Shown one piece after another: positions 600 to 34,633 of a DNA stretch of 35,073 bases. Below the pieces are notes generated by a model. The model had not been told where the DNA came from and ran no database searches. It saw only the letters and a list, made by a program, of their open reading frames with translations. The stretch is taken from contig JARGFH010000039.1 in NCBI GenBank assembly GCA_029210695.1, forward strand, positions 1 through 35,073, given 5' to 3'. The stretch's first letter is position 1; each line of letters starts with the position of its first letter. The DNA comes from Acidimicrobiia bacterium (GTDB taxonomy: Bacteria; Actinomycetota; Acidimicrobiia; Spongiisociales; JAHEDJ01). The translations under genes were made by a program, and so were the position numbers.

Positions 600-1634
600 G
601 TGAACCTCACACTCGAGGACATTGGTCGGCTGGCGGGAGTATCTCGCTCGACCGTTTCGCGTGTCATCAATGATCAGGCAAGTGTCAGCTCTGACGTTCG
701 CCAGCGGGTACAGGAGACGATCCGTCGGACCGGCTACACGCCGAACGTTGCTGCCCGATCGCTGGTCTCCGGACGGAGCGGCGTAATCGGGCTCGTCATT
801 CCCAGCCGGGTGCACAGGGTCTTCGAGGATCCGTACTTCTCGCGGCTGATCCAGGGTATCAGCGCGGCGAGCAACCGCTCGGGCACCGTCTTGTCTCTCT
901 TTCTGTTTCAGAACGAGGAGGAGGAGAGCGAGCTGTATCCGCGGGTTGTCACATCGCGGTTCCTGGATGGGCTGATTCTCACCGCAACACGGATGGCGGA
1001 TCCGCTCTTGGCCAGGGTGCCCAGTGGCGAGCTACCCATCGTGATGGTCGGGCGCCCGGACGTAGACGGCCTCAGCTATGTCAACGTCGACAACCGCGGC
1101 GGAGCCCTCCGGGCGGCGACCCACCTGTGCGGCCTCGGCTACGGACGCATCGGTCTAGTCGGAGCGCCCGTGTCCACGACGGCCGGCCTCGATCGACTGA
1201 ACGGTTTCGTCGAGGGGCTCGCCATCTGCGGAAAGGCCCTTCCGCCCAAGCTCCGGGCCGACGGGGACTTCTCAGAAGCAAGCGGATACCGGGCCATGCG
1301 GGAGTTGCTGCCGGGCAAACCCGACGCCGTATTCGCCGCTTCGGACACGATGGCGATCGGTGCTCTGCAGGCGTTGCGCGAGGAAGGGATCAGGGTCCCG
1401 CAGGACATAGCCTTAATGGGGTTCGACGGCCTACCGTCGTCTGAGACCTCCGTTCCGACGTTGACGACCATCCGCCAGCCCGTCATCGAGACGGGGGTGA
1501 GGGCCGTCCATCTCTTGAACGACCTCGTGACCGGGGTTTCGGTAGCACCGATCGTCGAGATCCTGCCGGTCGAACTCGTCGTTCGGGAGTCGTGTGGCGC
1601 GCTGCGCATGGCCCCGGCAACGGGAGTCGAATGA
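600..1634 (+). CDS. LacI-family transcriptional regulator of beta-glucan use
   Basis: This is a cytoplasmic sugar-responsive repressor of 344 residues, the usual LacI length. Residues 2-25 form the helix-turn-helix (LTLEDIGRLAGVSRSTVSRV), followed by the hinge and a periplasmic-binding-protein-like effector domain. The segment DAVFAASDTMAIGALQALRE and the GFDG stretch are family hallmarks. The GTG start is chosen because GGAGG lies five bases upstream and the helix-turn-helix begins at once. Three CebR-type operators surround its promoter, so autoregulation is likely. The genes downstream on the same strand point to a beta-1,3-gluco-oligosaccharide such as laminaribiose as inducer; that is an inference, and cellobiose is the known effector of CebR itself. 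Confidence 0.92.
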   Translation: MNLTLEDIGRLAGVSRSTVSRVINDQASVSSDVRQRVQETIRRTGYTPNVAARSLVSGRSGVIGLVIPSRVHRVFEDPYFSRLIQGISAASNRSGTVLSLFLFQNEEEESELYPRVVTSRFLDGLILTATRMADPLLARVPSGELPIVMVGRPDVDGLSYVNVDNRGGALRAATHLCGLGYGRIGLVGAPVSTTAGLDRLNGFVEGLAICGKALPPKLRADGDFSEASGYRAMRELLPGKPDAVFAASDTMAIGALQALREEGIRVPQDIALMGFDGLPSSETSVPTLTTIRQPVIETGVRAVHLLNDLVTGVSVAPIVEILPVELVVRESCGALRMAPATGVE

Positions 1635-1657
1635 GCAAGCAGTGAGCCGAAGGGAAA

Positions 1658-1678
1658 CGAGCCGGCCCTCGCGGCTCG
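1658..1678 (+). other. Short hairpin between lacI and the GH16 gene
   Basis: CGAGCCG (1658-1664) pairs with CGGCTCG (1672-1678) around a 7-base loop. No T-run follows. It may modulate read-through or stabilise the processed transcript; no second promoter or operator is visible in this gap. Confidence 0.35.
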
Positions 1679-1733
1679 GCGGGATTTGGAGACGGACGCC
1701 GGAGCGGTCCGCACCATGGAGAAGGAGAGACAA

Positions 1734-4700
1734 ATGAAGGGGTTGAACCAGAGGAGCCTCAAGGGTCTGGCAACGCTGGCCGTCATGGCTTTGATCACGT
1801 CGGTGCTTTTGGTGACGCCGGCGATGCCGGCGGCTGCGGACACGGCGGTCTTCGATGACATGGAACATGGTGATCCATTCGCGAACGGATGGTTCTCTTT
1901 CAACGGGGCGGTCGGCGGCGGTGGTATCGCGGCGAATACGGCCGACCTGCCTCCGGGTAACGGGGGCAGTTTCTCGCTCGAGACCGGCTGGGGGTCCGGC
2001 GGAGCTGCCGGCTTCTTCGGAGGATTCGGACGTACCAACCCGACCGACCTGTCGGGCGTCGACCACTTCAACTTCTGGATCAACCCGGACGCCGGTCAGG
2101 ATTACACCCTGGAGATCAACCTGCAGGACGACGACAACGCCGATGGCAACATAAGCTCTCCCGAAGACGACGAGTTTCAGTTCAACTGCGCCGTGTCGGA
2201 CTCGGGGCCGTGCGCCATTGCTGGAGGCGGCTGGCAGCTCGTGTCGATCCCGCTTGCCGGCTTTTTCGATGACAACTCCTTCCTGACCGGGGGCAACGGG
2301 ACACTCGACGCGACACCGTCAAACGGCGAGTTGATCAACGTAATCGTCGCTGTCATCAGCACCAGTGGCGCAGACGTGACATTCCGCACCGACTACTGGG
2401 CTTTCGACAGCCGTGTCGTCGACAACTTCGAAGGTGGCCTGCCGGCCGGCAGCGACGCCAACGGAAACGCCGTCGGTTTCTTCACCTTCCAGGACCCGGC
2501 CAGCACGGTCACGATCTCGACCACTGCTACTCCACCCGTTCCGGTGCCCGATTCGGATTCCTCGAACACGGTGCTTCAGGTGGAGACCAGCGTCAGCGGC
2601 AGCAACGGATTTGCCGGAGTTGTCCACGCCTTCGAGAACGAATCGGTCGACACATGGGTGACGCAGGACTGGAGCATGTTTGCGGGATTCAGCTTCTGGC
2701 TGTACGGCAACAACACCGGTTCAACCCTCTTCGTCGACCTCCTCGACAATCGGAATCCCGGCTCGACGACCGACGATGCCGAGCGCTTTTCGATCGATGT
2801 CGTCGACGACTTCTCCGGCTGGCGGCTCTTCGAGATCCCCTTCGCGAGTTTGAACCGGAAAGAGGTCGGCAACGGCGCTCCCAACGACGGGCTCAATCTC
2901 ACCGAGGTGCACGGCTGGGCGTTCGGTGTCTTCGACAGCGGGGTACCGTTCACCAACTACCTCGACGACGTTCAGTTGTTCGGAGTCGGCGAAGTACCCG
3001 AGCTGGCGGTGAGCTTCAGCGCCAACGACTTCGACGTGACCGAAGGAGACACCGGCCAGATCACGGTGGCGCTGAGTCGAGCACTCGGCGACGATGACCC
3101 CGATCGGGTGTCGATCGACTACTCGGTGGAGACGATCGTTCCGGTACCAGGCCGCGACTACGTCCAGCCTGCACCCGGCACGCTGACCTTCGTCAAGGAC
3201 GGACCTTCGGAGCTGTCCTTCTCAGTGCAGACGCTCGAAGACTCAAAGCACGAGAGCGCCGAGCGATTGATCCTGAAGTTGTCGAATCCCGTCGACGTGG
3301 CGGCCGGCTTCATCATGCAGGCCGCCCTCACCATCAGCGATGACGACCCCTTCGATCCGTTGCTGCTCGACGACTTCGAGCACTACCCGTACTTGTGGGA
3401 TGCGGCGGGCAATGTGGGGCTGGCCAATCCGGAACTGGAGTCCGGCGATCCTATGGCCGTGCCGGGACAGGGCCCCTATGAGCAGGTGCTCGAAGCGACC
3501 GTGCCCCTCCACGTGGACATCTCTATCGAAGGTCGCGTCTGCAATCGCGGAAGCGGCGTCATTCCGGTCGTCCTGTATTCCACCGATGAGTTCGACGCCA
3601 CGACGGTGGACCACACCACCGTCACACTCGGATCGGCGAGCGAGACGCACCTCAACCGCAAGACCGGCACGGCCGTGCGCCACGTGGAGGACGTCGACCG
3701 TGACGGAGATCTCGATCTGGTGTTCCATTTCCGATTCTCCGAAACCGGCCTGGAGTGCGATCCGTCGGTTGTGCCCTTCAACGGCCACACCTACGACGAC
3801 AAGCCCTTCACGGGCGGTGGCTCCGACGCTTCTTTCGGACGTGACTTCCCCGTCGGTCAGGACTGGACGGGTGCCGAGGCGCTGAGCTTCTGGTACTACG
3901 GGCAGAACACCGGAGATACGATCACACTGGACCTGCTCGACAATCGCGCCTCCGATCCCGGACCCGCCGGTTGGTCGCTGGTGTGGAGTGACGAATTCAA
4001 CGAACCGGCCGGCACTCCCCCGAACCCGGACAACTGGGGTTACGAGATAGGAGACGGCACCGTCAACGGCATTCCCGGCTGGGGCAACTCCGAGCTGCAG
4101 TACTACACGGACGACCCGGACAACGTCGCCACCGACGGCGCCGGGAATCTCGTAATCACGGCCGACGCGGCCGATGGTCAGGACTGCTACTACGGCCCCT
4201 GCGAATACACCTCGGCCCGATTGGCCACCACCAACCGGGCGGAGTTCGCCTACGGTCGGGTGGAATCCAGGATCCAGGTTCCCGACGGTGAAAATGGGCT
4301 GTGGCCGGCGTTCTGGAGCCTCGGTACCGACATCGACCGGGTGGACTGGCCTCAGACGGGCGAGATCGACATCATGGAGTACGTCAGCCGCCTCCCGGAC
4401 GAGATCTTCGGGACGATCCACGGCCCGGGATACTCAGGAGGTTCCTCCTTCGGCAATACATACCCGTTCCCCGGCGGTGTGGCAGCCGGCTATCACACGT
4501 TCGCGATCGAGTGGCAGCCGGATCTGATCGAGTGGTACGTGGACGGCATCGTCTATCACACGGCGACGCCGGCCGATGTCGCTCCCAACCAGTGGGTGTT
4601 CAACGACCCCGTCTACTTGCTCCTCAACCTGGCCGTCGGCGGCAACTTCGGCGGTGAAGTGAGCGACGCACTGACCTTCCCGCAGGAGTTGAAGGTCGAC

Positions 4701-6026
4701 TACGTGCGGGTCTACCAGGGCCCCGACACGGCTGAGCGGTTCGAGACGTCGTTCGTTGACGACTTCTCCGGCTGGCAGCAGGTCGTCGTACCGTTCGACG
4801 CCTTCGTGCGCAGTGCCGCTCAGCCGAATGGAGCGCCCGACGATGGCCTCAGCCTCAACGAAGTATGGGGTTACGGTTTCGACCTCCCGGACGCCGGTTC
4901 GAGCACCGGAACACTGTGGCTGGATCAGGTGCGGCTCGTCCCAGAGCCGCGCCTCGTAACAAATCTGAACGACGCGGGGCCGGGCTCGCTACGGCAGGCG
5001 ATCGCCGACGTCGTAGCCGGCGGAAACGTCGTGTTCGATCCCAGCCTCGCCGGCGGAACGATCACGCTCAGCTCCGGCCCGCTGGTCATTGGCAAAGCCG
5101 TCTCAATCGACGGCTCCGGTGCAGCCGGAATCGTGGTGAGCGGCGGCGGTGCAGACCGTGTCCTCATCGTCGGCCCCGGTGGGGTGGGCAACATCGGCCA
5201 TCTCACCCTGGCCGACGGCTACGGCTGGCAGCTGGCAGGATGCGTGCTCAACAACGGTTCGCTCACGCTCGACCACGCCACGGTGACTGGGTGCACCATG
5301 GCAACCGATGCCGGCGAGTTCTGGCAGGGCGGCGGTGGCATCTACAACGGTGACGGCGCAACGCTGAGCCTCGTTGACAGTACGGTGGCCGACAATCACG
5401 CCGCCTGGTCCGGTGGCGGTGTGTATTCGTTCCTCAACACGACCACCACAATCGTCCGAAGCACGATCAATGGAAATGTGTCGAATGATGTTGGGGGTGC
5501 CTTCCGCTCTCTCGGCAACGTGACGATCACGAACAGCACGATCAGCGGCAACACAGCAATCGGGTGGCACGGCGGTGCGATCTTCCAGACTGACGGAGAC
5601 GTCAGCATCTCGAATTCGACCGTAGCCAACAATGTTGGTCCGGACTGGGCACCCTCGACGTTCTTCATCGGTCAGTACGGTGGCGGATTTGTGCCAACGC
5701 TGACGCTGACCAACACGATCGTCACGGGTAATCAGTGGTACGCCTGTGAGAAGTTCGCATCGGGTACTCCCGGAAACGTCGTGTCCGGAGGTAGCAACCT
5801 GGTGCAGGACGACTCGTGCAACCCGGTCGGATCCGACCTGATCGGCGTCGACGCCCTGATCAGCCCTCTCGCCGACAACGGCGGCCCGACATTCACTCAC
5901 GCACTGCTGCCGGGCAGCCCGGCGATCGACGCGGCCAATGCGTCGGCGTGCCCGGCCACCGACCAGCGCGGAGTCACTCGGCCGCAGGGTGCCGGTTGCG
6001 ATGTCGGAGCGTTCGAACTCGAGTGA
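1734..6026 (+). CDS. Secreted multidomain GH16 laminarinase (endo-beta-1,3-glucanase)
   Basis: This exported 1430-residue enzyme is predicted to cut beta-1,3-glucan outside the cell. The ATG at 1734 is chosen because AAGGAG lies six bases upstream and a signal peptide (residues 1 to about 36) follows; an in-frame ATG at 1716 is less likely. Order: jelly-roll CBM-like domain (about 36-222), second CBM-like domain (226-420), Calx-beta domain (423-538), third CBM-like domain (543-1068), right-handed beta-helix of the SLRQAI type (1071-1430). The GH16 catalytic domain (747-996) lies inside the third CBM-like domain; its motif GEIDIMEY gives nucleophile E877, D879 and acid/base E882, the laminarinase form. 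A further domain (about 590-693, IPVVLYSTDEFDATTVD) is inserted earlier in the same CBM. It follows lacI in the operon. The activity class is firm; the exact substrate is inferred. Confidence 0.93.
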   Translation: MKGLNQRSLKGLATLAVMALITSVLLVTPAMPAAADTAVFDDMEHGDPFANGWFSFNGAVGGGGIAANTADLPPGNGGSFSLETGWGSGGAAGFFGGFGRTNPTDLSGVDHFNFWINPDAGQDYTLEINLQDDDNADGNISSPEDDEFQFNCAVSDSGPCAIAGGGWQLVSIPLAGFFDDNSFLTGGNGTLDATPSNGELINVIVAVISTSGADVTFRTDYWAFDSRVVDNFEGGLPAGSDANGNAVGFFTFQDPASTVTISTTATPPVPVPDSDSSNTVLQVETSVSGSNGFAGVVHAFENESVDTWVTQDWSMFAGFSFWLYGNNTGSTLFVDLLDNRNPGSTTDDAERFSIDVVDDFSGWRLFEIPFASLNRKEVGNGAPNDGLNLTEVHGWAFGVFDSGVPFTNYLDDVQLFGVGEVPELAVSFSANDFDVTEGDTGQITVALSRALGDDDPDRVSIDYSVETIVPVPGRDYVQPAPGTLTFVKDGPSELSFSVQTLEDSKHESAERLILKLSNPVDVAAGFIMQAALTISDDDPFDPLLLDDFEHYPYLWDAAGNVGLANPELESGDPMAVPGQGPYEQVLEATVPLHVDISIEGRVCNRGSGVIPVVLYSTDEFDATTVDHTTVTLGSASETHLNRKTGTAVRHVEDVDRDGDLDLVFHFRFSETGLECDPSVVPFNGHTYDDKPFTGGGSDASFGRDFPVGQDWTGAEALSFWYYGQNTGDTITLDLLDNRASDPGPAGWSLVWSDEFNEPAGTPPNPDNWGYEIGDGTVNGIPGWGNSELQYYTDDPDNVATDGAGNLVITADAADGQDCYYGPCEYTSARLATTNRAEFAYGRVESRIQVPDGENGLWPAFWSLGTDIDRVDWPQTGEIDIMEYVSRLPDEIFGTIHGPGYSGGSSFGNTYPFPGGVAAGYHTFAIEWQPDLIEWYVDGIVYHTATPADVAPNQWVFNDPVYLLLNLAVGGNFGGEVSDALTFPQELKVDYVRVYQGPDTAERFETSFVDDFSGWQQVVVPFDAFVRSAAQPNGAPDDGLSLNEVWGYGFDLPDAGSSTGTLWLDQVRLVPEPRLVTNLNDAGPGSLRQAIADVVAGGNVVFDPSLAGGTITLSSGPLVIGKAVSIDGSGAAGIVVSGGGADRVLIVGPGGVGNIGHLTLADGYGWQLAGCVLNNGSLTLDHATVTGCTMATDAGEFWQGGGGIYNGDGATLSLVDSTVADNHAAWSGGGVYSFLNTTTTIVRSTINGNVSNDVGGAFRSLGNVTITNSTISGNTAIGWHGGAIFQTDGDVSISNSTVANNVGPDWAPSTFFIGQYGGGFVPTLTLTNTIVTGNQWYACEKFASGTPGNVVSGGSNLVQDDSCNPVGSDLIGVDALISPLADNGGPTFTHALLPGSPAIDAANASACPATDQRGVTRPQGAGCDVGAFELE

Positions 6027-6047
6027 GGTTGTCAATCGTCCACCTCC

Positions 6048-6078
6048 GGGCTCCGGCCGGTTTCCCCGGCCGGAGCCC
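6048..6078 (+). other. Strong intercistronic hairpin between GH16 and GH3 genes
   Basis: A 13-bp perfect stem (GGGCTCCGGCCGG at 6048-6060 with CCGGCCGGAGCCC at 6066-6078) closes a 5-base loop. It starts 22 bases after the GH16 stop. No T-run follows, so it is more likely an mRNA stabiliser or partial terminator, separating expression of the secreted enzyme from that of the intracellular ones. Confidence 0.6.
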
Positions 6079-6102
6079 CTCCTCCAACAGGGACCTGAAG
6101 CC

Positions 6103-7899
6103 GTGATCTCCCACGATTCGACAATTGAACAGCTCATCGCGGGGATGACGCCGGCTGAGAAGATCGGCCAGATGACACAGGCATCAAATGAGGCCATCAC
6201 CCCTCGCGAGGTAGCGGATCTATCCATCGGATCGGTGCTGTCCGGTGGCAACGGCAACCCGACGCCGAACACCCCCTCGGTATGGGCCGACATGGTCGGG
6301 TCGTTTGTCGAAGCTGCCGGTCAATCGGGGATTCCACTGGTTTACGGCGTCGACGCGGTCCACGGCCACAGCAACGTGGGCGGGGCAACGATCTTCCCGC
6401 ACAACATCGGGCTCGGCTCGGCCGGAGACGAAGGTCTCGTCGAGCGAATCGGGCAGGCCACCGCCACCGAGATGCGGGCAACGGGAATCCGCTGGACATT
6501 TGCTCCGACGGTGGCGGTGCCACAGGACATCAGGTGGGGCAGGACCTATGAGGGTTACGGGCGGGATCCTGAATTGGTGGCCAAGCAGAGTGCCGCGTTG
6601 GTGAGAGGCCTGCAAGGATCCGGGCAAGGGCCCCTGTCCGTCCTGGCCTGCGCCAAGCACTTCGTGGGTGACGGAGCCACCACGTGGGGCACCGCGCCCC
6701 GTTTCAGCTGGGAGCACTGGTGGGACGGCTGGGGCGATAGCTGGCAGATCGATCAGGGCGACGCCCGGATCTCGGAGGAGCAACTCCGCTCAATCCACCT
6801 CCGCCCCTATATCGCCGCCCTCGAGGCGGGCGTCATGACCGTCATGGCCTCTTACAACTCGTGGAATGGCGAGAAACTGCATGCCCACCACGGCCTGCTA
6901 TCCGGCGTGCTGAAGGAAGAGCTCGGATTCCGGGGATTCGTGGTATCGGATTGGATGGGGGTCGACCAGATCGACTCGGACTACGAGACGAGCGTCGTCA
7001 GGGCCATCAACGCCGGCGTCGACATGGTGATGGTCCCCGATGACTATCTCAGGTTCATCGAGGTCATGAAACGAGTGACGGCCTCCGGACGGATCCCGGT
7101 AGAGAGGATCGATGACGCGGTGCGCAGGATCCTCAGAGCGAAGCTTGCAGCCGGGCTCTTCGACCCCCAACCTCCGACGCCTCCGCTCAGCGCTGTCGGC
7201 TCAACGGAGCATCGCGCCCTCGCCGCCGAAGCAGTGCGGGGCAGCGCCGTCTTGCTGAAGAACGACGGAGCACTTCCCCTCGCTGCCGGCGCCCGATCAA
7301 TTGAGGTGGCCGGCAGAGCAGCCGACGATATCGGCCTCCAATGCGGCGGCTGGACCGTGGGATGGCAGGGAGGTTCCGGACGAACCACCGCCGGGACGAC
7401 ACTGCTCGACGGGCTGCGAGCCTCCTCGCCACACGGCATCGAGTTCGACCCCTCCGGAGACTTCTCCAGTCCCAATCGCCCGGACATCGGGATTGTGTGC
7501 ATCGCCGAGCCACCGTACGCCGAGGGACCGGGTGATCGGGCCACACCCACCGCCTCCGATGAGGACAGGGCCGTCTTTGCACGGATGCGCGAACGCGCTG
7601 ATGTTTTGGTGCTGGTGGTCTACTCCGGCCGGCCACTGGTCATTCCGGACCTCATCGATCGGGCCGACGCCGTAGTAGCCGCCTGGCTTCCCGGCAGCGA
7701 AGGTGCCGCCCTGGGCGAAGTGTTGTCGGGTCTTCATCGGTTTTCCGCCCGGACCTCTCAGCCCTGGCCTCGCTCGTTTGAAGCCCTCGACGATCCGGAG
7801 CCCACCCCTCTGTTTCCGGCCGGACACGGCCTATCCCCCACCGCCGCCGATGCCGGCAGGAACTCAAAGACGACACCGCCAGAGCAAGTAAATGATTGA
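6103..7899 (+). CDS. GH3 beta-glucosidase (exo-beta-glucanase), cytoplasmic
   Basis: This 598-residue GH3 enzyme is predicted to release glucose from beta-gluco-oligosaccharides. The N-terminal barrel carries AKHFVGDG and GFVVSDWMGVDQ, where D283 in SDW is the catalytic nucleophile. The second alpha/beta domain ends with AAWLPGSEGAALGEVL and an FPAGHGLS closing motif, so the enzyme is complete but lacks the fibronectin-III domain of larger GH3 enzymes. There is no signal peptide. The GTG at 6103 is chosen because it lies after the upstream stop and directly before the first conserved segment (IAGMTPAEKIGQM); its ribosome binding site is weak. The gene's end overlaps a possible early start of the next gene, which suggests translational coupling. 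A laminari-oligosaccharide substrate is inferred from the operon. Confidence 0.92.
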   Translation: MISHDSTIEQLIAGMTPAEKIGQMTQASNEAITPREVADLSIGSVLSGGNGNPTPNTPSVWADMVGSFVEAAGQSGIPLVYGVDAVHGHSNVGGATIFPHNIGLGSAGDEGLVERIGQATATEMRATGIRWTFAPTVAVPQDIRWGRTYEGYGRDPELVAKQSAALVRGLQGSGQGPLSVLACAKHFVGDGATTWGTAPRFSWEHWWDGWGDSWQIDQGDARISEEQLRSIHLRPYIAALEAGVMTVMASYNSWNGEKLHAHHGLLSGVLKEELGFRGFVVSDWMGVDQIDSDYETSVVRAINAGVDMVMVPDDYLRFIEVMKRVTASGRIPVERIDDAVRRILRAKLAAGLFDPQPPTPPLSAVGSTEHRALAAEAVRGSAVLLKNDGALPLAAGARSIEVAGRAADDIGLQCGGWTVGWQGGSGRTTAGTTLLDGLRASSPHGIEFDPSGDFSSPNRPDIGIVCIAEPPYAEGPGDRATPTASDEDRAVFARMRERADVLVLVVYSGRPLVIPDLIDRADAVVAAWLPGSEGAALGEVLSGLHRFSARTSQPWPRSFEALDDPEPTPLFPAGHGLSPTAADAGRNSKTTPPEQVND

Positions 7900-22971: not shown

Positions 22972-23160
22972 GTTTCCCTCTCTCGTTCGGATGTTGCGAA
23001 CGTATCTCCCCACAGGGACAGAAACACAGGATGGCGCTCGACGTGGGTCGATTGAGGATTCATCTCCATTGCGGCTCGCCGATTCATGATCGGATTCGTA
23101 GACCCTCGTGGAAACCGCAGTCGCTTGGCCAGACCTCGAAGCGCAGGACCCTTCGCCCGT

Positions 23161-23376
23161 TCAGGAGCCGTAGAGTGCCGGCCTGTATCGGGGCTTCGGG
23201 ATATCTCGACCCGTCTCGGCAGCCGCCTTCAGCCATGCGGCCTTCGCTTCCATAACGCCGGCCAAAGCGGTCTCTGGGGTTGGCCCGAAGGCCGAGCAGG
23301 AGGGGAGATCGGGAATGTCGGCTATGTAGCCGCCGTCTTCCTCGCTGAAGAACACATTGATGTGGTAGTCGCTCAT
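23161..23376 (-). CDS. hicB: HicB-family antitoxin, copy 1
   Basis: A 71-residue HicB protein with the partial RNase-H-like fold: YHINVFFSEEDGGYIADIPDLPSCSAFG, then PETALAGVMEAKAAWLKAA. It lacks the C-terminal DNA-binding domain of longer HicB proteins, so repression by it alone is doubtful. The start overlaps the end of hicA by four bases. A 283-bp segment containing this gene is duplicated at 29955-30237. Confidence 0.9.
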   Translation of the reverse strand: MSDYHINVFFSEEDGGYIADIPDLPSCSAFGPTPETALAGVMEAKAAWLKAAAETGRDIPKPRYRPALYGS

Positions 23377-23630
23377 AGGTCGCCCTCTATCCGAAGATTG
23401 TATCGCTCTACCAGCTTCACTAGTTGTCGCACCTGATAGGGCTTGGCATCACCATGCACTTCCTGGAGATTGAGCAACTCGGCGAAACCGTCGCGGGCAA
23501 GGATATGGTGGCTCCCGCTCACGCGAACAATCTCGAACCCGAGTTTGCGGCACAATCGTATGAGGTCCGAGAATCTCACGTTGTCAACCCTGCCTTGACC
23601 GATGCGGGCGAGCAGTTGGGCGGGTTTCAT
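23373..23630 (-). CDS. hicA: HicA-family mRNA interferase toxin
   Basis: An 85-residue HicA toxin with the double-stranded-RNA-binding-like fold. LIRLCRKLGFEIVRVSGSHHIL contains the Gly-Ser-His motif with the catalytic His; the basic C-terminus (VRQLVKLVERYNL) completes it. It precedes hicB with a four-base overlap, the usual hicAB order. The N-terminal 20 residues extend beyond the minimal HicA, so a later start is possible. The toxin looks intact, unlike the truncated second copy. Confidence 0.88.
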   Translation of the reverse strand: MKPAQLLARIGQGRVDNVRFSDLIRLCRKLGFEIVRVSGSHHILARDGFAELLNLQEVHGDAKPYQVRQLVKLVERYNLRIEGDL

Positions 23631-23670: not shown

Positions 23671-23853
23671 CTAGTCCGGAGCCGGCCAGCAGCCGGCCGC
23701 CATTGCCTGAGTTTCGGCGTAGGCGCTGGGGCATTCGGGTTTCACTTCGCGAGTGTTGTAGAAGTGGACAATTCCCTCCAACGACTTGAAGTAGCCGTTG
23801 TGGCCGAACGCCTTCACCGTCCCGGCCGACTGGAGGGCGACGTTGCGCAGGGC
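23671..23853 (-). pseudogene. C-terminal remnant of a di-haem cytochrome c peroxidase gene
   Basis: The minus strand encodes NVALQSAGTVKAFGHNGYFK, LEGIVHFYNTREVKPECP and AGCWPAPD before a TAG stop. The intact peroxidase gene at 33404-34633 has NVALQPAGTVKAFGHNGYFK, LEGIVHFYNTRDVKPECP and AGCWPAPE in the same order. Both haem motifs and everything N-terminal are missing, and the stop comes before the usual tail. No start lies upstream, so this is a fragment of a paralogue. Confidence 0.85.
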
Positions 23854-24378: not shown

Positions 24379-26790
24379 ATGGCACAACGGCTGCTGATGG
24401 CAGCGATCCTGGTGGTGGTGCTGCTTGTGCCGGCGACGGTGGCCGCCCAGGATGCCACGATCGGAGACCCCCAGTGGATCCGCACAGGCGGGCCCATCGG
24501 CGGCCTCGGCTACGACGTGCGGATGCGTCCGGACAATCCCGACACGTTGTTGGTCACCGACGCCTGGGCCGGCATGTTCATGAGTACCGACGGAGGTGCG
24601 GTCTGGTTCCCGGTCAATGAGGGAATCACCACGCGCACCGGACCCACCGGAGACGCCATCCCGGTGTTCTGCGCGACAGTCGATCCGAATGATCCGGACA
24701 TCGTGTGGGCCGGCACCCAGAACCTGCGCGGCATCTTCAAGTCTGTCGACGGCGGGCATTCGTGGGTCGAGTTGGATCGTGGGGTCGTCGAAACCGACGG
24801 CATCACCTTCCGGGGCATCACCGTCGATCCCCACGACTCCGACGTCGTGTGGGCCGCCGCCGAAATCTCCAGCTGGGCAGGAGGGAGACCCGAACGAACC
24901 GGGAGGGGCTTCGATCTGGTCGAGGGAGTCGTTTATCTCACCACGAACGGCGGGGCCGACTGGACGGCGGTCTGGAGGGGCGACAACCTGGCCAGGTATA
25001 TCTGGATCGATCCCACCGATTCGGACACCGTCTACGTCTCCACCGGGATCTTCGACCGCGAAGCCGCCAACTCGGATCCGGAAACCGGGGTCCCCGGCGG
25101 CGAGGGAATCCTCAAGACCACGGATGGCGGTCGCACCTGGACAAATGCCAACCAAGGCCTCGGCAATCTCTACATCGGAAGCCTGTTCATGCATCCCGAC
25201 GATCCGCAGGTTCTCCTCGCAGCGGCGGGTAGCAACGTCTACTACGAAGGGACCGGCGTCTACCTCACCACCGACGGCGCGGCGACCTGGGAGCCCGTTC
25301 TCGTCGATCCCGACAAGGAGGCCGAGGGCTTCCACTCCGTCGAGTTCTCGCTTGCCGAACCCGACATCGCCTACGCCGCTTCGAGCGGTTCGGTGTACCG
25401 CAGCGAAGACGGCGGCCGCACCTGGGCGGCAATGACACCACCGGGTTCGGCCTGGGGAGACCCGCCGGTCCGCGGCGGCTTTCCCATCGATATCCAGGTT
25501 GATCCCCGGGATCCCGACCGGCTCTTCATCAATGCTTACGGCGGCGGCAACTTCCTCAGCCGCGACGGTGGCCGCTCCTGGACCGTGGCCAGTACGGGAT
25601 ATACCGGCGCCCAGATTCGCGGCGTCGTGGTCGACCCCGACAATCCCGGACGGGTCTGGGTCACCGGACGCAGCGGTCTCTTCGTCTCGACCGACGGCGG
25701 CACCACCTGGGTCGGGCAATCCCCGTTCGACCCCTACCCGACCTTCGAGGGCATGGCCCTGGCCATCGCCGCCGATGGCTCGATGCTGGAAGCGGACAAC
25801 GTCGGCCGGGGCATCGCCTACGGCGAAGGGCAGGATTGGAGCTACGCCGAACCGGCCTGGCCGTATCCCCAGGCGGTTGAAGCCTTTGCCTTCGCACCGT
25901 CGAATCCGGAGGTGGCGTACGCCGGACTTGGCGCCTTCTTCACACCCAGCTACTTCGACGACTTCATTCCCGGAGGCGGTGTCCTCCGATCCGACGACGG
26001 AGGCAGGACCTGGCAGCCGGCCAACGACAGCCTCTCGGAAACGGCCCACGTGACCGGAATCGCCGTGGACCCGAACGATCCCGCCCGGGTTTTCGCCTCC
26101 ACCCACAACGCCGGCCTGCTCCTCTCTCTCGACGGTGGAGCCTCATGGCAGACGGTCGGCGCTACCACCGACCTCCCGGTGGTTGCTGTGGCCATCCATC
26201 CAACCGACCCCCGGGTCGTTCTCTTCGGATCGCGGGGCGTTCACCGCAGTACCGATGGCGGTGAGACCTGGACGGCGGCGGCCGGCGGCGTCGCTCCGGA
26301 GTCGATGATCGTCGATTTCGTCTTTGATCCCACCGATCCCGGCGTTGTCTTCGCCGCCGATATCGGGAGCGGTGTCTACCGGTCGACGGATGCCGGGTTG
26401 TCCTGGGAGGCGATCAACCTCGGGCTCCGGACCCGGGCGGTCAACGACCTGGCGATCTCGCACGACGGTCGCCATCTGTATGCAGCTACCGAAGGCGAGG
26501 GCATTTACCGCCTCGACCTCGACGGGACTCCACCGGAAGCCGCGCCGTTGCCGACGATCCCCACGACCACGTCGACCACCAGCGCCCCCGCCACAGTCAC
26601 CACCACCTCCGTAGCCGGGGTCGCTTCTACCGGCACGTCGGTAACCACACCCGAGCCGCAGGCAGCCGACGGCAACCGCGACGAAGGGGTCTCATGGCTC
26701 CTTTGGGCGGGGGCCGGTGCTGCCTTGCTGGTCGTGTTCGGACTGGGGTTGGCGATCGGCCGGGCCCGCCGGGCGAGGAGCCCTGATTGA
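24379..26790 (+). CDS. Membrane-anchored beta-propeller with 12 Asp-boxes (sortilin/BNR type)
   Basis: This 803-residue protein has a signal peptide (residues 1-23, with GGGAGG before the ATG), a long propeller region, a Thr/Ser-rich linker (about 720-760) and a C-terminal membrane span ending in basic residues (GRARRARSPD). I count twelve Asp-box motifs of the form S-x-D-G-G-x-T-W (for example STDGGAVW, KTTDGGRTW, RSEDGGRTW, RSTDGGETW), as in Vps10/sortilin and glycosidase-like propellers. The boxes are structural; no sialidase active-site arginines are evident, so a catalytic role is not supported. It would display a binding platform outside the membrane. The next gene, a multihaem cytochrome, overlaps its stop by four bases, which suggests a joint function. 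Confidence 0.85.
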   Translation: MAQRLLMAAILVVVLLVPATVAAQDATIGDPQWIRTGGPIGGLGYDVRMRPDNPDTLLVTDAWAGMFMSTDGGAVWFPVNEGITTRTGPTGDAIPVFCATVDPNDPDIVWAGTQNLRGIFKSVDGGHSWVELDRGVVETDGITFRGITVDPHDSDVVWAAAEISSWAGGRPERTGRGFDLVEGVVYLTTNGGADWTAVWRGDNLARYIWIDPTDSDTVYVSTGIFDREAANSDPETGVPGGEGILKTTDGGRTWTNANQGLGNLYIGSLFMHPDDPQVLLAAAGSNVYYEGTGVYLTTDGAATWEPVLVDPDKEAEGFHSVEFSLAEPDIAYAASSGSVYRSEDGGRTWAAMTPPGSAWGDPPVRGGFPIDIQVDPRDPDRLFINAYGGGNFLSRDGGRSWTVASTGYTGAQIRGVVVDPDNPGRVWVTGRSGLFVSTDGGTTWVGQSPFDPYPTFEGMALAIAADGSMLEADNVGRGIAYGEGQDWSYAEPAWPYPQAVEAFAFAPSNPEVAYAGLGAFFTPSYFDDFIPGGGVLRSDDGGRTWQPANDSLSETAHVTGIAVDPNDPARVFASTHNAGLLLSLDGGASWQTVGATTDLPVVAVAIHPTDPRVVLFGSRGVHRSTDGGETWTAAAGGVAPESMIVDFVFDPTDPGVVFAADIGSGVYRSTDAGLSWEAINLGLRTRAVNDLAISHDGRHLYAATEGEGIYRLDLDGTPPEAAPLPTIPTTTSTTSAPATVTTTSVAGVASTGTSVTTPEPQAADGNRDEGVSWLLWAGAGAALLVVFGLGLAIGRARRARSPD

Positions 26791-28463
26791 TCCGCCGCCT
26801 CCGCCTTCCGGCCGGGTTGCTTGCCGGGCTGGTGGTGGTCGGCGGCATTCTGCTTTTCGCTCTTCCCGCCGATCGGACTATCCACGGCCGGGTACTGGCG
26901 GCGGACGGAACGCCGGTTGTCGACGCGATCGTTCGGATCCAGGCGACCGACGTTTCCGTGCGCACGGCTTCCGATGGCGGGTTTGTCCTCGAATCCGGCC
27001 AGAGCGTGCGATTGAGTGCCTGGGCTCCCGGTTTCTACATCGCCGGGGGCGAAGAACACGCCCCGGGCAGCGAGGCCACGTTCACCCTGTCGGCAGTCCC
27101 GGACGCCGACCATCCCGAGTACGAGTGGCTCGGTGTGGAGGCGGGCGGTGGAGGCGAGGCCCAGGGTTGTGCCGCCTGTCACAGTCGGGACGGTACCGAC
27201 CTTCCCTTCGCTCTGCCGGTCGACGAGTGGCGTCAAGACGCCCACGGCCAATCAGCCCAGAACCCCCGTTTCATCACCATGTATCTCGGGACGGACGTCG
27301 CCGGCCGGCTCAGTCCGTCGACCAGGTACGTCTCTAGTCGGGATTACGGGCGGGTGCCGCTGGCGCCCGACCCTTCCCGGCCCTATTACGGACCCGGCTA
27401 CAAACTCGACTTCCCCGACACGGCCGGCAACTGCGGCGCTTGCCACCTCCCCGTGGCGGCGGCCGACGATCCGTACGGGGTCGAGCCGGGCAATCTCGTC
27501 GGCGTTGCAGCCGAGGGGATCACCTGTGACTTCTGCCACAAGATATGGGACGTGTCGCTCGATGCCGACACGGCCATGCCGCTTCCCAACCGGCCCGGGG
27601 TGTTGTCGTTCGAGTTGCTTCGCCCTCCGGAGGGCCACCAGTTCTTCACCGGCCCGTTCGACGACGTCGCTCCCGGCGAGGACACCTACTCGCCCCTGCA
27701 GACCCAAAGCGCGTACTGTGCCCCCTGCCACCACGCCGTGTTCTGGGACACAGTCGTCTACGACTCCTACGGCGAGTGGCTTCGCAGTCCCTACAGCGAT
27801 CCTGAGACCGGACGGACCTGCCAGGACTGCCACACGCCGGCCACCGGCGCCACCGTGTTCGTCCGTCCCGACGCCGGTGGCTTGACCCGGGACCCGGAAA
27901 CGATCCGCAGCCATCTCATGCCGGGAGCCGGCGATGAGGAGTTGCTTGCCAACGCCGTCACGGTGACGGCGAGTGCGGTCGAGGAGGAGGGCCGGATTGC
28001 CATCGAGGTGACGATTACCAACGACCGGACGGGACATCATGTGCCCACCGATTCGCCGCTCCGTCACCTGATCCTGCTGGTCGCCGCAACGGATGGTGAC
28101 GGGACGGCCCTATCGCAGTTGGACGGTCCGGTCGTGCCCGACTGGGCCGGGCGGGGCGACCCCGAAACCGGCCACTTCGCCGGTCTGCCCGGCACCGCCT
28201 ATGCCAAGGTCCTGGAAGAGTTGTGGACGGAGGTGTCTCCCACCGGGGCGTACTGGAACCCGACCCGGGTGCTATCCGACAACCGCATCGCAGCGCTGGA
28301 CCGCGACACGACCCGATACGTGTTCGCAGCTCCCCCAACCGGACCGGTAGCCGTCGAGGTCACCCTGCTTTTCCGACGGGCCCACCTGGAGCTAATGGAG
28401 CAGAAAGGATGGGTTGTCCCCGATATCGAGATGGCCCATCTCACGGTGCGCGTGGACGGCTGA
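26787..28463 (+). CDS. Exported pentahaem cytochrome c
   Basis: This 558-residue protein starts with TTG inside the last codons of the propeller gene. An N-terminal hydrophobic segment (residues 8-28) anchors or exports it; a carboxypeptidase-regulatory-like beta-sandwich follows (about 32-95). Five CxxCH haem motifs begin at Cys128 (CAACH), 216 (CGACH), 247 (CDFCH), 311 (CAPCH) and 345 (CQDCH), resembling cytochrome c554-like multihaem proteins. The C-terminal third is beta-rich without haem motifs. It should carry electrons outside the membrane; donor and acceptor are unknown. Translational coupling with the Asp-box propeller suggests that the two form a complex. Confidence 0.88.
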   Translation: MIRRLRLPAGLLAGLVVVGGILLFALPADRTIHGRVLAADGTPVVDAIVRIQATDVSVRTASDGGFVLESGQSVRLSAWAPGFYIAGGEEHAPGSEATFTLSAVPDADHPEYEWLGVEAGGGGEAQGCAACHSRDGTDLPFALPVDEWRQDAHGQSAQNPRFITMYLGTDVAGRLSPSTRYVSSRDYGRVPLAPDPSRPYYGPGYKLDFPDTAGNCGACHLPVAAADDPYGVEPGNLVGVAAEGITCDFCHKIWDVSLDADTAMPLPNRPGVLSFELLRPPEGHQFFTGPFDDVAPGEDTYSPLQTQSAYCAPCHHAVFWDTVVYDSYGEWLRSPYSDPETGRTCQDCHTPATGATVFVRPDAGGLTRDPETIRSHLMPGAGDEELLANAVTVTASAVEEEGRIAIEVTITNDRTGHHVPTDSPLRHLILLVAATDGDGTALSQLDGPVVPDWAGRGDPETGHFAGLPGTAYAKVLEELWTEVSPTGAYWNPTRVLSDNRIAALDRDTTRYVFAAPPTGPVAVEVTLLFRRAHLELMEQKGWVVPDIEMAHLTVRVDG

Positions 28464-29803: not shown

Positions 29804-29960
29804 CGCTGATCTTGGGTACCCGTGGCCTCTGCCGTGTCACAGCATCTCGAGGCAGTTGGCTGACCAGGGCGTTCGGACGGGATCGATCACACCGCCAGGC
29901 CCGGTCGTTGAGGCAAGACGAAAGAGGGCCGGCACCGCCTCTCCTTCGTTCGTCACCCGT

Positions 29961-30176
29961 TCAGGATCCGTAGAGCGCCGGCCTGTACCGGGGCTTCGGG
30001 ATCTCGCGCCCCGCCTCGGCGGCCGCCTTCAGCCAGGCGGCCTTCGCTTCCATAACTGCAGCCAAAGCGGTCTCTGGGGTTGGTCCGAAGGCCGAGCAGG
30101 AGGGGAGATCGGGAATGTCGGCTATGTAGCCGCCGTCTTCCTCGCCGAAGAACACATTGATGTGGTAGTCGCTCAT
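29961..30176 (-). CDS. HicB-family antitoxin, copy 2 (orphan)
   Basis: This is a second 71-residue HicB that differs from copy 1 at four residues (S to G, G to A, T to A, D to E). The reading frame is intact. Its partner hicA is reduced to the last 21 codons, so this is an orphan antitoxin. It might neutralise the HicA encoded near 23.5 kb, which would make it an anti-addiction gene; this is an inference. Confidence 0.82.
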   Translation of the reverse strand: MSDYHINVFFGEEDGGYIADIPDLPSCSAFGPTPETALAAVMEAKAAWLKAAAEAGREIPKPRYRPALYGS

Positions 30177-30237
30177 AGGTCGCCCTCTATCCGAAGATTG
30201 TATCGCTCTATCAGCTCCACTAGTTGTCGCACCTGAT
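30173..30237 (-). pseudogene. Truncated hicA (3-prime end only)
   Basis: The last 21 codons of hicA remain (QVRQLVELIERYNLRIEGDL before the stop), with two residues changed relative to the intact copy. Similarity to the intact module ends sharply after 30237, where unrelated sequence with a repeat fragment begins. The catalytic His is lost. Confidence 0.85.
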
Positions 30238-33403: not shown

Positions 33404-34633
33404 TCAGCCGTCGGACAGAGTCCGGAGGAAGGCCACGATCGCCGCCTCCTCTGCCGGGGTCAGGCCCAGATCACCGAGTTCGTCGGTGTTGACGTTGTCG
33501 TCTATTTCCGGAGCCGGCCAGCATCCGGCCGACATCGCCTGGGCTTCGGTGTAGGCGCCGGGGCATTCGGGCTTCACGTCTCGAGTGTTGTAGAAGTGGA
33601 CGATTCCCTCCAGCGACTTGAAGTAGCCGTTGTGCCCGAACGCCTTCACCGTCCCGGCCGGCTGCAGGGCGACGTTGCGCAGGGTGGGAACCTTGAACTT
33701 CCCCATCTCTTCTTCGTAGACGTCTTCGTCGTAACCGGCATTCATGAGGAAGCCACCCAGACCAGGATCTCTGAAGTCGGGATCCGCCAGATAGGCCGGG
33801 TTCTCGGGGTTCACCGGGATGCCGAGGTTGTCGAAGGTGAAATCGGTGAACAGCGCATCCTGGCCGGTGGCGGAATGGCACGCCCGGCAGCCACCCTTGC
33901 CCTGAAACAGCGCGAAGCCTCTCTGCTCCTCTCTCGACAACTTGCCCAGATCGAACTTCGAGCTGAAGGCGTTGGAGGCCGTGGAGTCTTCGAACGCCGC
34001 AATCGCGAGGGCAATCTGGTCGTAGGCGCCATCGGAGATGGTACGGTCGGCGGCGGAAAGGGCCACCGTGGTGCCCTCGGTAGCGCACGTAGCCGCAATG
34101 CCTCCCGGCCAGGTGATACTGCAGGTGTCCGCCCCCCAGACGCTGGTGAAAAGCGTCCCGTAGCCACCGGTACACACCTTCCAGACCACGCACGCCGAGT
34201 CGGGAAGTGCCTGCTCCATCGGATTCAGGAAAGGTCCCTGCGCTTGATCGGCGGCCGGATTCCCCAGCTTCTCGCCCGTCGCCCGGCCGTCCCAGAAGTT
34301 GCCTCCCACGTACGTGCCCTTCTTGTCCACATGGAAGATCGGGCTCACCGTCGCGTAGGCGGAACTCGGCGGCTTGCGGTCCCCGAATCGGCCGGCGATG
34401 GAACCCTCGTACACAGCTCCGGCTGCGTTGATCGCTTCGTTCGGACCGGTCCAGCCCCAATCAGGATCGTGACAGCTCGCACACGACTGGTTTCCGTTGA
34501 TGGACAGGGCTTCGTCGAAGAAGATGCCCTCCCCTAGTTGCTCGATGGGTGTGAGCTCCTGGGCGCCGGCCGGAACGACGGCCGCCACCAGCAGGATTGC
34601 CATGAACAACAATCCCCATACCCTCGGTCTCAT
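33404..34633 (-). CDS. Di-haem cytochrome c peroxidase / MauG-family protein
   Basis: A 409-residue exported protein with a signal peptide (about 1-24) and GGGAGG before the ATG. Two haem motifs are present: CASCH at residues 51-55 and CRACH at 249-253, one per domain, as in bacterial cytochrome c peroxidases and MauG. LGEGIFFDEALSINGNQSC is the usual start of the N-domain; KVPTLRNVALQPAG and HNGYFKSLEGIVHFYN are the conserved C-domain motifs. It reduces peroxide or oxidises a partner protein outside the membrane. A central insertion with extra Cys residues (DSACVVWKVC, ADTC) is unusual and may be disulfide-bonded. A decayed C-terminal piece of a paralogue lies at 23671-23853. Confidence 0.93.
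   Translation of the reverse strand: MRPRVWGLLFMAILLVAAVVPAGAQELTPIEQLGEGIFFDEALSINGNQSCASCHDPDWGWTGPNEAINAAGAVYEGSIAGRFGDRKPPSSAYATVSPIFHVDKKGTYVGGNFWDGRATGEKLGNPAADQAQGPFLNPMEQALPDSACVVWKVCTGGYGTLFTSVWGADTCSITWPGGIAATCATEGTTVALSAADRTISDGAYDQIALAIAAFEDSTASNAFSSKFDLGKLSREEQRGFALFQGKGGCRACHSATGQDALFTDFTFDNLGIPVNPENPAYLADPDFRDPGLGGFLMNAGYDEDVYEEEMGKFKVPTLRNVALQPAGTVKAFGHNGYFKSLEGIVHFYNTRDVKPECPGAYTEAQAMSAGCWPAPEIDDNVNTDELGDLGLTPAEEAAIVAFLRTLSDG

Follow-up and report, generated by a model that had tools for sequence, protein, structure and literature searches.

A conserved gene pair of a tandem Asp-box propeller and a pentahaem cytochrome suggests a possible extracytoplasmic redox machine of two proteins

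The window analysed here is a stretch of 35,073 nucleotides from an acidimicrobial MAG. An open reading frame on its forward strand (24379-26790) codes for an Asp-box double-propeller protein of 803 amino acids with a signal sequence recognizable by eye, two propellers, a Thr-rich linker and a C-terminal hydrophobic helix. On the same strand lies the gene of a pentahaem cytochrome c with predicted c552/ExtKL-like PHC fold (26787-28463, 558 amino acids, TTG start). The two genes overlap by the four bases TTGA (26787-26790, + strand), as a preliminary description of this DNA had stated, and a ribosome-binding-site-like AGGAG is present on the + strand at 26776-26780, six bases 5´ of the cytochrome TTG.

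Twelve Asp-boxes were counted in the propeller protein with the pattern [ST]x[DN][GA][GA]xx[WFY], whereas 2000 shuffled sequences gave 0.08 on average and never more than 3; the strict form SxDxGxxW gives nine. In the structure model (pLDDT 87), the N-terminal propeller spans approximately residues 30-445 (24466-25713, + strand) and is the better-conserved half, with an invariant D61. The C-terminal propeller, delimited by structure alignment, spans approximately residues 446-716 (25714-26526, + strand). A helix at residues 774-799 (26698-26775, + strand), modelled and hydrophobic by eye, is the likely transmembrane anchor; the earlier claim of a membrane-anchored propeller with 12 Asp-boxes agrees with the reading frame, the box count and the model. 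A crude lipobox rule flagged 12/33 cytochromes and 4/33 propellers. It was not relied on, because it overlooked at least one case that looks likely by eye (L055) and picked up another that is probably false (L104).

GH74 xyloglucanases (2cn2, 7kn8, 5fkq and others), likewise tandem Asp-box propellers, align to residues ~30-715 of the model with Z of 30.3-32.9 over 602-613 residues (rmsd ~5). Single WD40-type propellers reach similar Z (29-31), but over ~280 residues, so that the GH74 likeness is distinguished by alignment length and not by Z. Judged by the aligned length, the tandem of seven-bladed propellers characteristic of GH74 is present, and according to the model the protein is a GH74-like tandem fold. 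Among profile matches, Sortilin/VPS10 (PF15902) is a repeat-level one at 122 bits; Sortilin/VPS10 is a single ten-bladed propeller with a 10CC domain. The NCBIfam name "F510_1955 family glycosylhydrolase" (194 bits, cut-off 175) was judged a generic Asp-box match and set aside.

The window propeller differs from the GH74 xyloglucanases in its C-terminal hydrophobic helix, its cytochrome partner and its first catalytic position. The blade-1 catalytic Asp, which we take to be D35 of 1sqj/2ebs and D70 of 2cn2, falls in the HMMER alignment on column 62 (A62 in the window), where 40 propellers carry A (29), N (7), G (2), T (1) or S (1); a register error of one residue is possible, given that D61, directly before this column, is Asp in 40/40. 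Position 473, our guess for where the C-terminal propeller would carry the second catalytic Asp, is Asp in 9/40. The assignment as a GH74 enzyme was dropped because, in the HMMER register, the first position holds no Asp in any of the 40. GH74 propellers clamp xyloglucan, and one can imagine a glycan-directed oxidoreductase whose propeller clamps a polysaccharide while the cytochrome oxidises or reduces the glycan, or feeds an enzyme doing so. The fold would suit such a role, and so would the GH16/CBM11-GH3 cluster carried by the window and certain neighbours of other cytochrome subfamilies (CEMIP beta-helix/G8, heparinase II/III-like proteins, Opp-type transporters with GH4; based on one or two scanned cases each). 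Against this stand the first catalytic position, the low Asp count at the guessed second one and the distance of 16 kb between the pair and GH16/GH3; moreover, we know of no multihaem cytochrome acting on glycans, and we regard the proposal as very unlikely.

The cytochrome contains five CXXCH motifs, starting at residues 128, 216, 247, 311 and 345, where 5000 shuffles gave at most one; the five haems of the earlier account are thus borne out. The motifs, all on the + strand, are CAACH of haem 1 (27168-27182, proximal ligand H132, K or M in some relatives), CGACH of haem 2 (27432-27446), CDFCH of haem 3 (27525-27539), CAPCH of haem 4 (27717-27731) and CQDCH of haem 5 (27819-27833). The N-terminal beta-sandwich described previously corresponds, by profile and structure comparison, to a transthyretin/carboxypeptidase-D-like (CarboxypepD_reg) domain at residues 28-105 (26868-27101, + strand). 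A second, C-terminal Ig-like sandwich, overlooked in that description, is modelled at approximately residues 389-558 (27951-28460, + strand) and holds the invariant H417 (TGHHVPT).

The cytochrome model (pLDDT 93) aligns at residues 111-556 with c552 of Thermochromatium tepidum (5ze8; 335 residues superposed at rmsd 2.6, Z 26.2), which likewise has a five-haem domain followed by a C-terminal sandwich included in the alignment; the profile match for the fold has an E of 8.3e-27. Identity is 23%, and the window cytochrome differs by its transthyretin-like N-domain and its propeller partner gene. On the evidence of sequence and model, its core has the T. tepidum c552/ExtKL (PHC) fold, to which a transthyretin-like domain is added at the N-terminus. 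As in PHCs, five c-haem motifs lie in one domain. The ExtKL equivalog NF040886 is matched by all 51 of 51 A4 members at E <= 1e-3; we rejected the equivalog name itself for the window protein, which scores 22.7 bits against a curated cut-off of 250 and, unlike the described PHC family (Geobacter ExtKL, Gsu2801 and cable-bacteria sPHC/lPHC in the accessible part of PMC11976967), has a propeller partner. Viral contigs gave no match to the cytochrome patterns, and no c552-like fold appeared among the 50 matches listed in a search of viral structures. A profile match was further obtained to 6i5b (E 6.7e-7), which we take to be OcwA of Thermincola potens; we know of no propeller partner of OcwA. 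This protein is described in the accessible text of PMC6703420 as a Gram-positive surface multihaem terminal reductase.

The proximal ligand of haem 1 varies among relatives: it is H in 67, K in 10, M in 2 and unreadable in 2 of 81. The motifs of haems 2-5 are constant, and because haem 1 is the only one whose ligand changes among His, Lys and Met, we hypothesize that it is differentiated, probably open and substrate-facing. The window itself has the ordinary CXXCH (CAACH) of the majority and not the NrfA-type CXXCK. NrfA resembles our cytochrome in mode of working only: it too has five haems, and its active-site haem 1 is CXXCK in most clades and CXXCH in some, as far as the available portion of PMC8840924 goes, whereas the profile match is marginal (1qdb, E 0.052).

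One possibility, which we consider rather doubtful, is that the cytochrome is a pure relay or terminal wire of extracellular electron transfer, with all haems six-coordinate and possibly forming an AvECN-like polymer, while the propeller is a surface scaffold. PHC/ExtKL relatives are indeed tied to extracellular electron transfer, and the accessible text of PMC11976967 presents c552 as a proposed relative of the AvECN nanowire. Further multihaem cytochromes are encoded in the window's own genome. Beta-propellers are also encoded among multihaem cytochromes in D. ferrophilus IS5, although these are 6- and 7-bladed proteins within a 15-protein cluster, likened here by description only (PMC8322314, in part). 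However, it is not easy to see why a relay should switch its proximal ligand at haem 1 only, and the same part of PMC11976967 places sPHC/lPHC among cytochromes with at least one five-coordinate haem.

The pairing recurs in other genomes, mostly as adjacent genes; in the main, we found neither the lack of co-occurrence nor the wide separation that the preliminary description had named as contrary to its idea. Among 395 genomes of the window's class, the propeller gene is directly upstream in 4/4 full-length cytochrome orthologues. Five propeller orthologues exceed 800 bits (next best 82), four of them adjoining the cytochrome and the fifth (G338) running off a contig end. The pair is rare in this class (4/395 genomes, 0/4 congeners). 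Among the best 80 of at least 504 confirmed cytochrome relatives, a set biased to near relatives because only the best were taken, all of them named loci, 37 have a propeller relative (E <= 1e-5), which in 33 is the immediate neighbour on the same strand; about a dozen phylum labels are represented. Geometry of reading frames in 35 of the 37 placed the two genes side by side on one strand in 31, with the propeller leading in 24 and the cytochrome in 7; L070, cut by a contig end, and L075 are adjacent by relative search and stand outside the 35. Acidimicrobiia, Chloroflexota, Desulfobacteria and Nitrospinota are among the bacteria in which the unit occurs.

A less biased sample of 337 genomes (the class of an Anaerolineae MAG; the same genomes in both protein searches, judging by their labels) holds both in 6, propeller only in 1, cytochrome only in 40 and neither in 290 (Fisher 3e-5); misses are possible, as at most three propeller candidates (of up to 33 found) and four cytochrome candidates were scored per genome. 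The cytochrome is thus present in 6/7 propeller genomes, adjacent in four, and 5/6 genomes with cytochromes above 600 bits also have the propeller. Exceptions exist: 0.9 Mb separates the pair in G997, G1050 has the propeller but yielded no cytochrome at E <= 1e-60, G768 has a close cytochrome but yielded no propeller, and no propeller was found in the locus DNA searched around a clade of four close cytochromes (L067, L072, L073, L076). A mirror-tree comparison of 33 pairs showed weak co-evolution (r 0.355, 1/2000 permutations as high), which we count against the module proposed below.

The patchy distribution and the single-gene genomes might suggest mere co-inheritance, in which one promoter serves two exported proteins that have no joint function and the cassette has spread as a whole. 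This we hold to be highly improbable, since proximity is kept despite reversed order in eight named loci and one further divergent pair, at cytochrome identities of 38-59%. The propeller and cytochrome genes form a conserved, old unit.

The di-haem CCP/MauG gene mentioned previously does lie 4.9 kb from the pair, on the opposite strand (33404-34633, profile match). Its suggested participation was not upheld: tblastn (E <= 1e-5) gave no match in 40 loci (three other acidimicrobial stretches and 37 named propeller-type loci, some only 6-8 kb long), and it was dropped as a third member. The most recurrent further gene cluster of the 37 propeller loci is that of generic ABC ATPases (6/37), the next occurring in three. 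In L087, whose haem 1 is CXXCK, propeller, cytochrome, ResB, a CcsA-type gene and a second propeller follow in a row on one strand, and the G1050 propeller gene lies tail-to-tail with a gene for cytochrome c assembly. Such neighbours would fit a propeller that is an assembly or maturation factor of the cytochrome, outside the working enzyme. Ycf48/HCF136, an Asp-box propeller and assembly factor for photosystem II, is among its profile relatives. The modelled ~600-residue GH74-like tandem, not a single propeller, and several same-fold cytochromes with no propeller in the locus DNA searched make this role distinctly unlikely.

The two genes read most naturally as coding for an extracytoplasmic redox pair. 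Our preferred proposal, made tentatively and with somewhat less than even confidence, is a two-protein redox module outside the cytoplasmic membrane, in which haem 1 is differentiated, probably substrate-facing, and the cytochrome either docks onto a clamp formed by the propeller or is fed by it. Both proteins would be exported, judging by signal sequences seen by eye in each and, for the cytochrome, by the c-type haem, which implies export. The propeller may act as a clamp or receptor that brings the substrate, or a partner in electron transfer, close to the cytochrome. Electrons would pass through haems 2-5, with conserved H153, H376, H417 and H418 as candidate distal ligands, and haem 1 would be the open haem; His/Lys alternation also occurs at the active site of NrfA. 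Most likely, an extracytoplasmic acceptor is reduced. A bolder and, to us, unlikely version is a phylum-spanning respiratory or catalytic module whose GH74-like clamp offers some acceptor, such as an extracellular polymer, to the PHC cytochrome, haem 1 being a His/Lys/Met-switching active site.

The earlier statement that no system with this pair has been described agrees with our search: no described function of a propeller-pentahaem pair was found in the open-access literature searched. ExtI, perhaps with ExtKL, is linked to selenite reduction (PMC5877670), and an ExtKL homologue is reported from syntrophic bacteria (PMC10553843); the accessible portions of both papers make no mention of a propeller-cytochrome pair.

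Taken together, the c552 cytochrome fold, which earlier work ties to nanowires and to extracellular electron transfer, is now supplied with a partner, and the haem 1 ligand switch leads to a testable claim on the site of chemistry in the c552/PHC family. If haem 1 is truly an active site, then NrfA-like haem chemistry would have arisen, or been kept, on a second pentahaem fold, in some members with its own ResB-CcsA synthase. What the two-gene unit suggests is a redox machine of two proteins, so far undescribed, on the outer side of the membrane.

The two genes of the operon encode an Asp-box double propeller (24379-26790, with 12 Asp-boxes) and a pentahaem cytochrome c (26787-28463, with five CXXCH motifs); these counts and the TTGA overlap, as reported in the preliminary description, are all confirmed from sequence. 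The host genome (3.9 Mb in 181 contigs, the window being contig 39) carries cytochrome c assembly genes, seen as two PF01578 matches, and haem attachment is therefore plausible in the host. Other multihaem cytochromes are present as well, one combining a NapC-type domain with six CXXCH motifs and another carrying nine. A second cytochrome locus of this genome, L182 (G000:C8, 7268-12037), comprises a six-motif NapC-type protein, one protein with two motifs and one cytochrome with nine.

The pair had been proposed as a possible surface redox complex whose co-occurrence in other genomes should be checked, and such co-occurrence is indeed found. Among the best 80 of 504 confirmed cytochrome relatives from named genomes, where the closest to the window cytochrome come from Acidimicrobiia MAGs, propeller relatives occur at 37 loci, in 33 of them directly adjacent on one strand; some of the remaining 43 have too little flank to judge (locus L091, for example, has 63 bases upstream). 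ORF geometry, computed for 35 of the 37 loci and the window, gives 25 propeller-first arrangements (window counted) and seven cytochrome-first ones, each without a called ORF between. Two ORFs separate the genes at L057 and one at L068 and L092, and at L104 the genes are divergent; L070 and L075, outside this geometry set, have the pair adjacent according to the locus search. Paired loci bear the labels Actinomycetota, Chloroflexota, Bacteroidota, KSB1, Thermodesulfobacteriota, Bacillota, Armatimonadota, Bipolaricaulota, Acidobacteriota, Pseudomonadota, Nitrospinota and Myxococcota, several of which rest on single MAGs with binning taken as given. The paired loci include the named species Desulfamplus magnetovallimortis and Leptolinea tardivitalis. 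When mapped onto a tree of 81 cytochromes, the propeller label requires 7 changes, whereas shuffled labels average 27.1.

Within the window's class, cytochrome matches at E <= 1e-3 were obtained in 6 of 395 genomes (own genome counted). Four orthologues are full-length (G000, the own genome, G034, G255 and G377), all four with the propeller directly upstream; the matches in G056 and G389 are weak and partial. Reverse search from the propeller returned five orthologues, four at cytochrome loci and one, in G338, cut by a contig end. In other classes of the phylum, 18 of 396 genomes (own genome not counted) carry distant cytochromes, and no propeller relative at E <= 1e-4 was present around them (20 stretches of 3-17 kb). 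In 337 genomes from the class of G755 (the Anaerolineae MAG with locus L056), the cytochrome is found at E <= 1e-60 in 46, the propeller in 7 and both in 6 (Fisher, 3e-5); where the cytochrome exceeds 600 bits, five of six genomes also have the propeller. The genes adjoin in G755, G761, G765 and G1021; in G933 they are on two contigs, the propeller being cut by a contig end. Strict adjacency is thus common, not universal, given the exceptions G997 (0.9 Mb apart), G1050 (propeller alone, cytochrome absent at E <= 1e-60) and G768 (close cytochrome alone, propeller not found). At L169 (G1050:C145, 6608-10075) the propeller gene and one for cytochrome c assembly (PF01578) are arranged tail-to-tail, with ccmF-, ccmA- and ccmB-like neighbours recognized by eye.

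Little beyond the pair is common to the 37 loci: generic ABC ATPases recur at 6, a response-regulator-like cluster at 3 and others at 2. The di-haem peroxidase near the operon (33404-34633, opposite strand) is not supported as a partner, its protein having no relative in 40 loci. At L054 (4754-7338), an acidimicrobial relative, DUF1800 and DUF1501 genes directly follow the cytochrome. In the window itself, direct repeats flank the operon (23153-23437 and 29953-30237, 94%; 23675-23852 and 33507-33684, 92%), the first pair without further copy in the own genome. The left-hand pieces resemble a degraded copy of the 29.9-33.7 kb region that has suffered internal deletion and takes in part of the peroxidase gene. 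A LacI regulator, a GH16 protein with CBM11 and a GH3 protein (600-7899), 16 kb from the operon, possibly form a beta-glucan use cluster.

Other cytochrome subfamilies have neighbours of their own. Beside one, at seven loci (L088, L090, L097, L107, L113, L117, L126; Pfam on L097), stands a YNCE/YVTN propeller fused to a RoxA/MauG-like di-haem domain, a suggestive parallel to the present pair. Another, found for the most part in Caldilineaceae and Anaerolineae, lies in or beside Opp/Dpp-type ABC operons (16 loci: L086, L095, L096, L106, L108, L109, L112, L114, L115, L121, L122, L124, L128, L129, L132, L133), mostly between permease and ATPase genes (Pfam on L112); all 16 cytochromes have an extra CX4CH motif, and many of the loci a GH4-type gene (checked on L109). 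In deltaproteobacterial MAGs, a G8 and CEMIP beta-helix protein of 1235-1602 aa precedes the cytochrome (L093, L098, L099, L102, L123; two scanned), and a caspase-like protein was noted by eye at L093, L098 and L102.

The predicted propeller structure (pLDDT 87) matches GH74-type double propellers with Z 30.3-32.9 over 602-613 residues (rmsd ~5), covering most of 30-715; single propellers score nearly as high, but over ~280 residues. Glycosidase identity was not adopted: the position of the GH74 catalytic Asp is A62, and its column holds A 29, N 7, G 2, T 1 and S 1 in 40 propellers, the preceding D61 being Asp in all 40. In the same alignment, 50 of 51 invariant columns fall at or before residue 444, that is, in the N-terminal propeller; of the columns with at least 90% conservation, however, ~28 lie beyond it. 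The clustering of invariant columns suggests, rather than shows, a functional face in the N-terminal propeller.

The cytochrome model (pLDDT 93) has a transthyretin-like domain at residues 28-105, and its residues 111-556 match T. tepidum pentahaem c552 (Z 26.2, rmsd 2.6, 335 residues, 23% identity), in agreement with sequence profile matches. The proximal residue of haem 1, H132 in the window, varies among 81 cytochromes (H 67, K 10, M 2, unreadable 2); the remaining four motifs have His in 80 or 81. Six of the ten Lys cases are propeller-type loci, and the ligand needs 4 changes on the cytochrome tree. Judged by conservation, the non-motif histidines H153 (79 of 81), H376 (80), H417 (81) and H418 (74) could serve as distal ligands; they would roughly suffice for four haems and leave one open. 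In NrfA the active site is haem 1, with CXXCK in 15 of 18 clades and CXXCH in 3 (PMC8840924). We infer that haem 1 would be the catalytic haem in these cytochromes. In Bipolaricaulis (L087), ResB and a CcsA-type gene come after a CXXCK cytochrome, and a second propeller after them; none of these assembly genes was seen by eye at the other nine Lys loci. The CXXCK haem of E. coli reportedly involves the dedicated genes nrfEFG.

Taken together, the component proteins are of known kinds, and no account of the pair was found in the open-access papers searched. The partnership of propeller and cytochrome, its breadth and the ligand switch at haem 1 appear to be new. The best supported reading is that the pair represents a putative extracytoplasmic two-protein redox module, in which the propeller would act as clamp or receptor for a PHC cytochrome distinguished by its haem 1.
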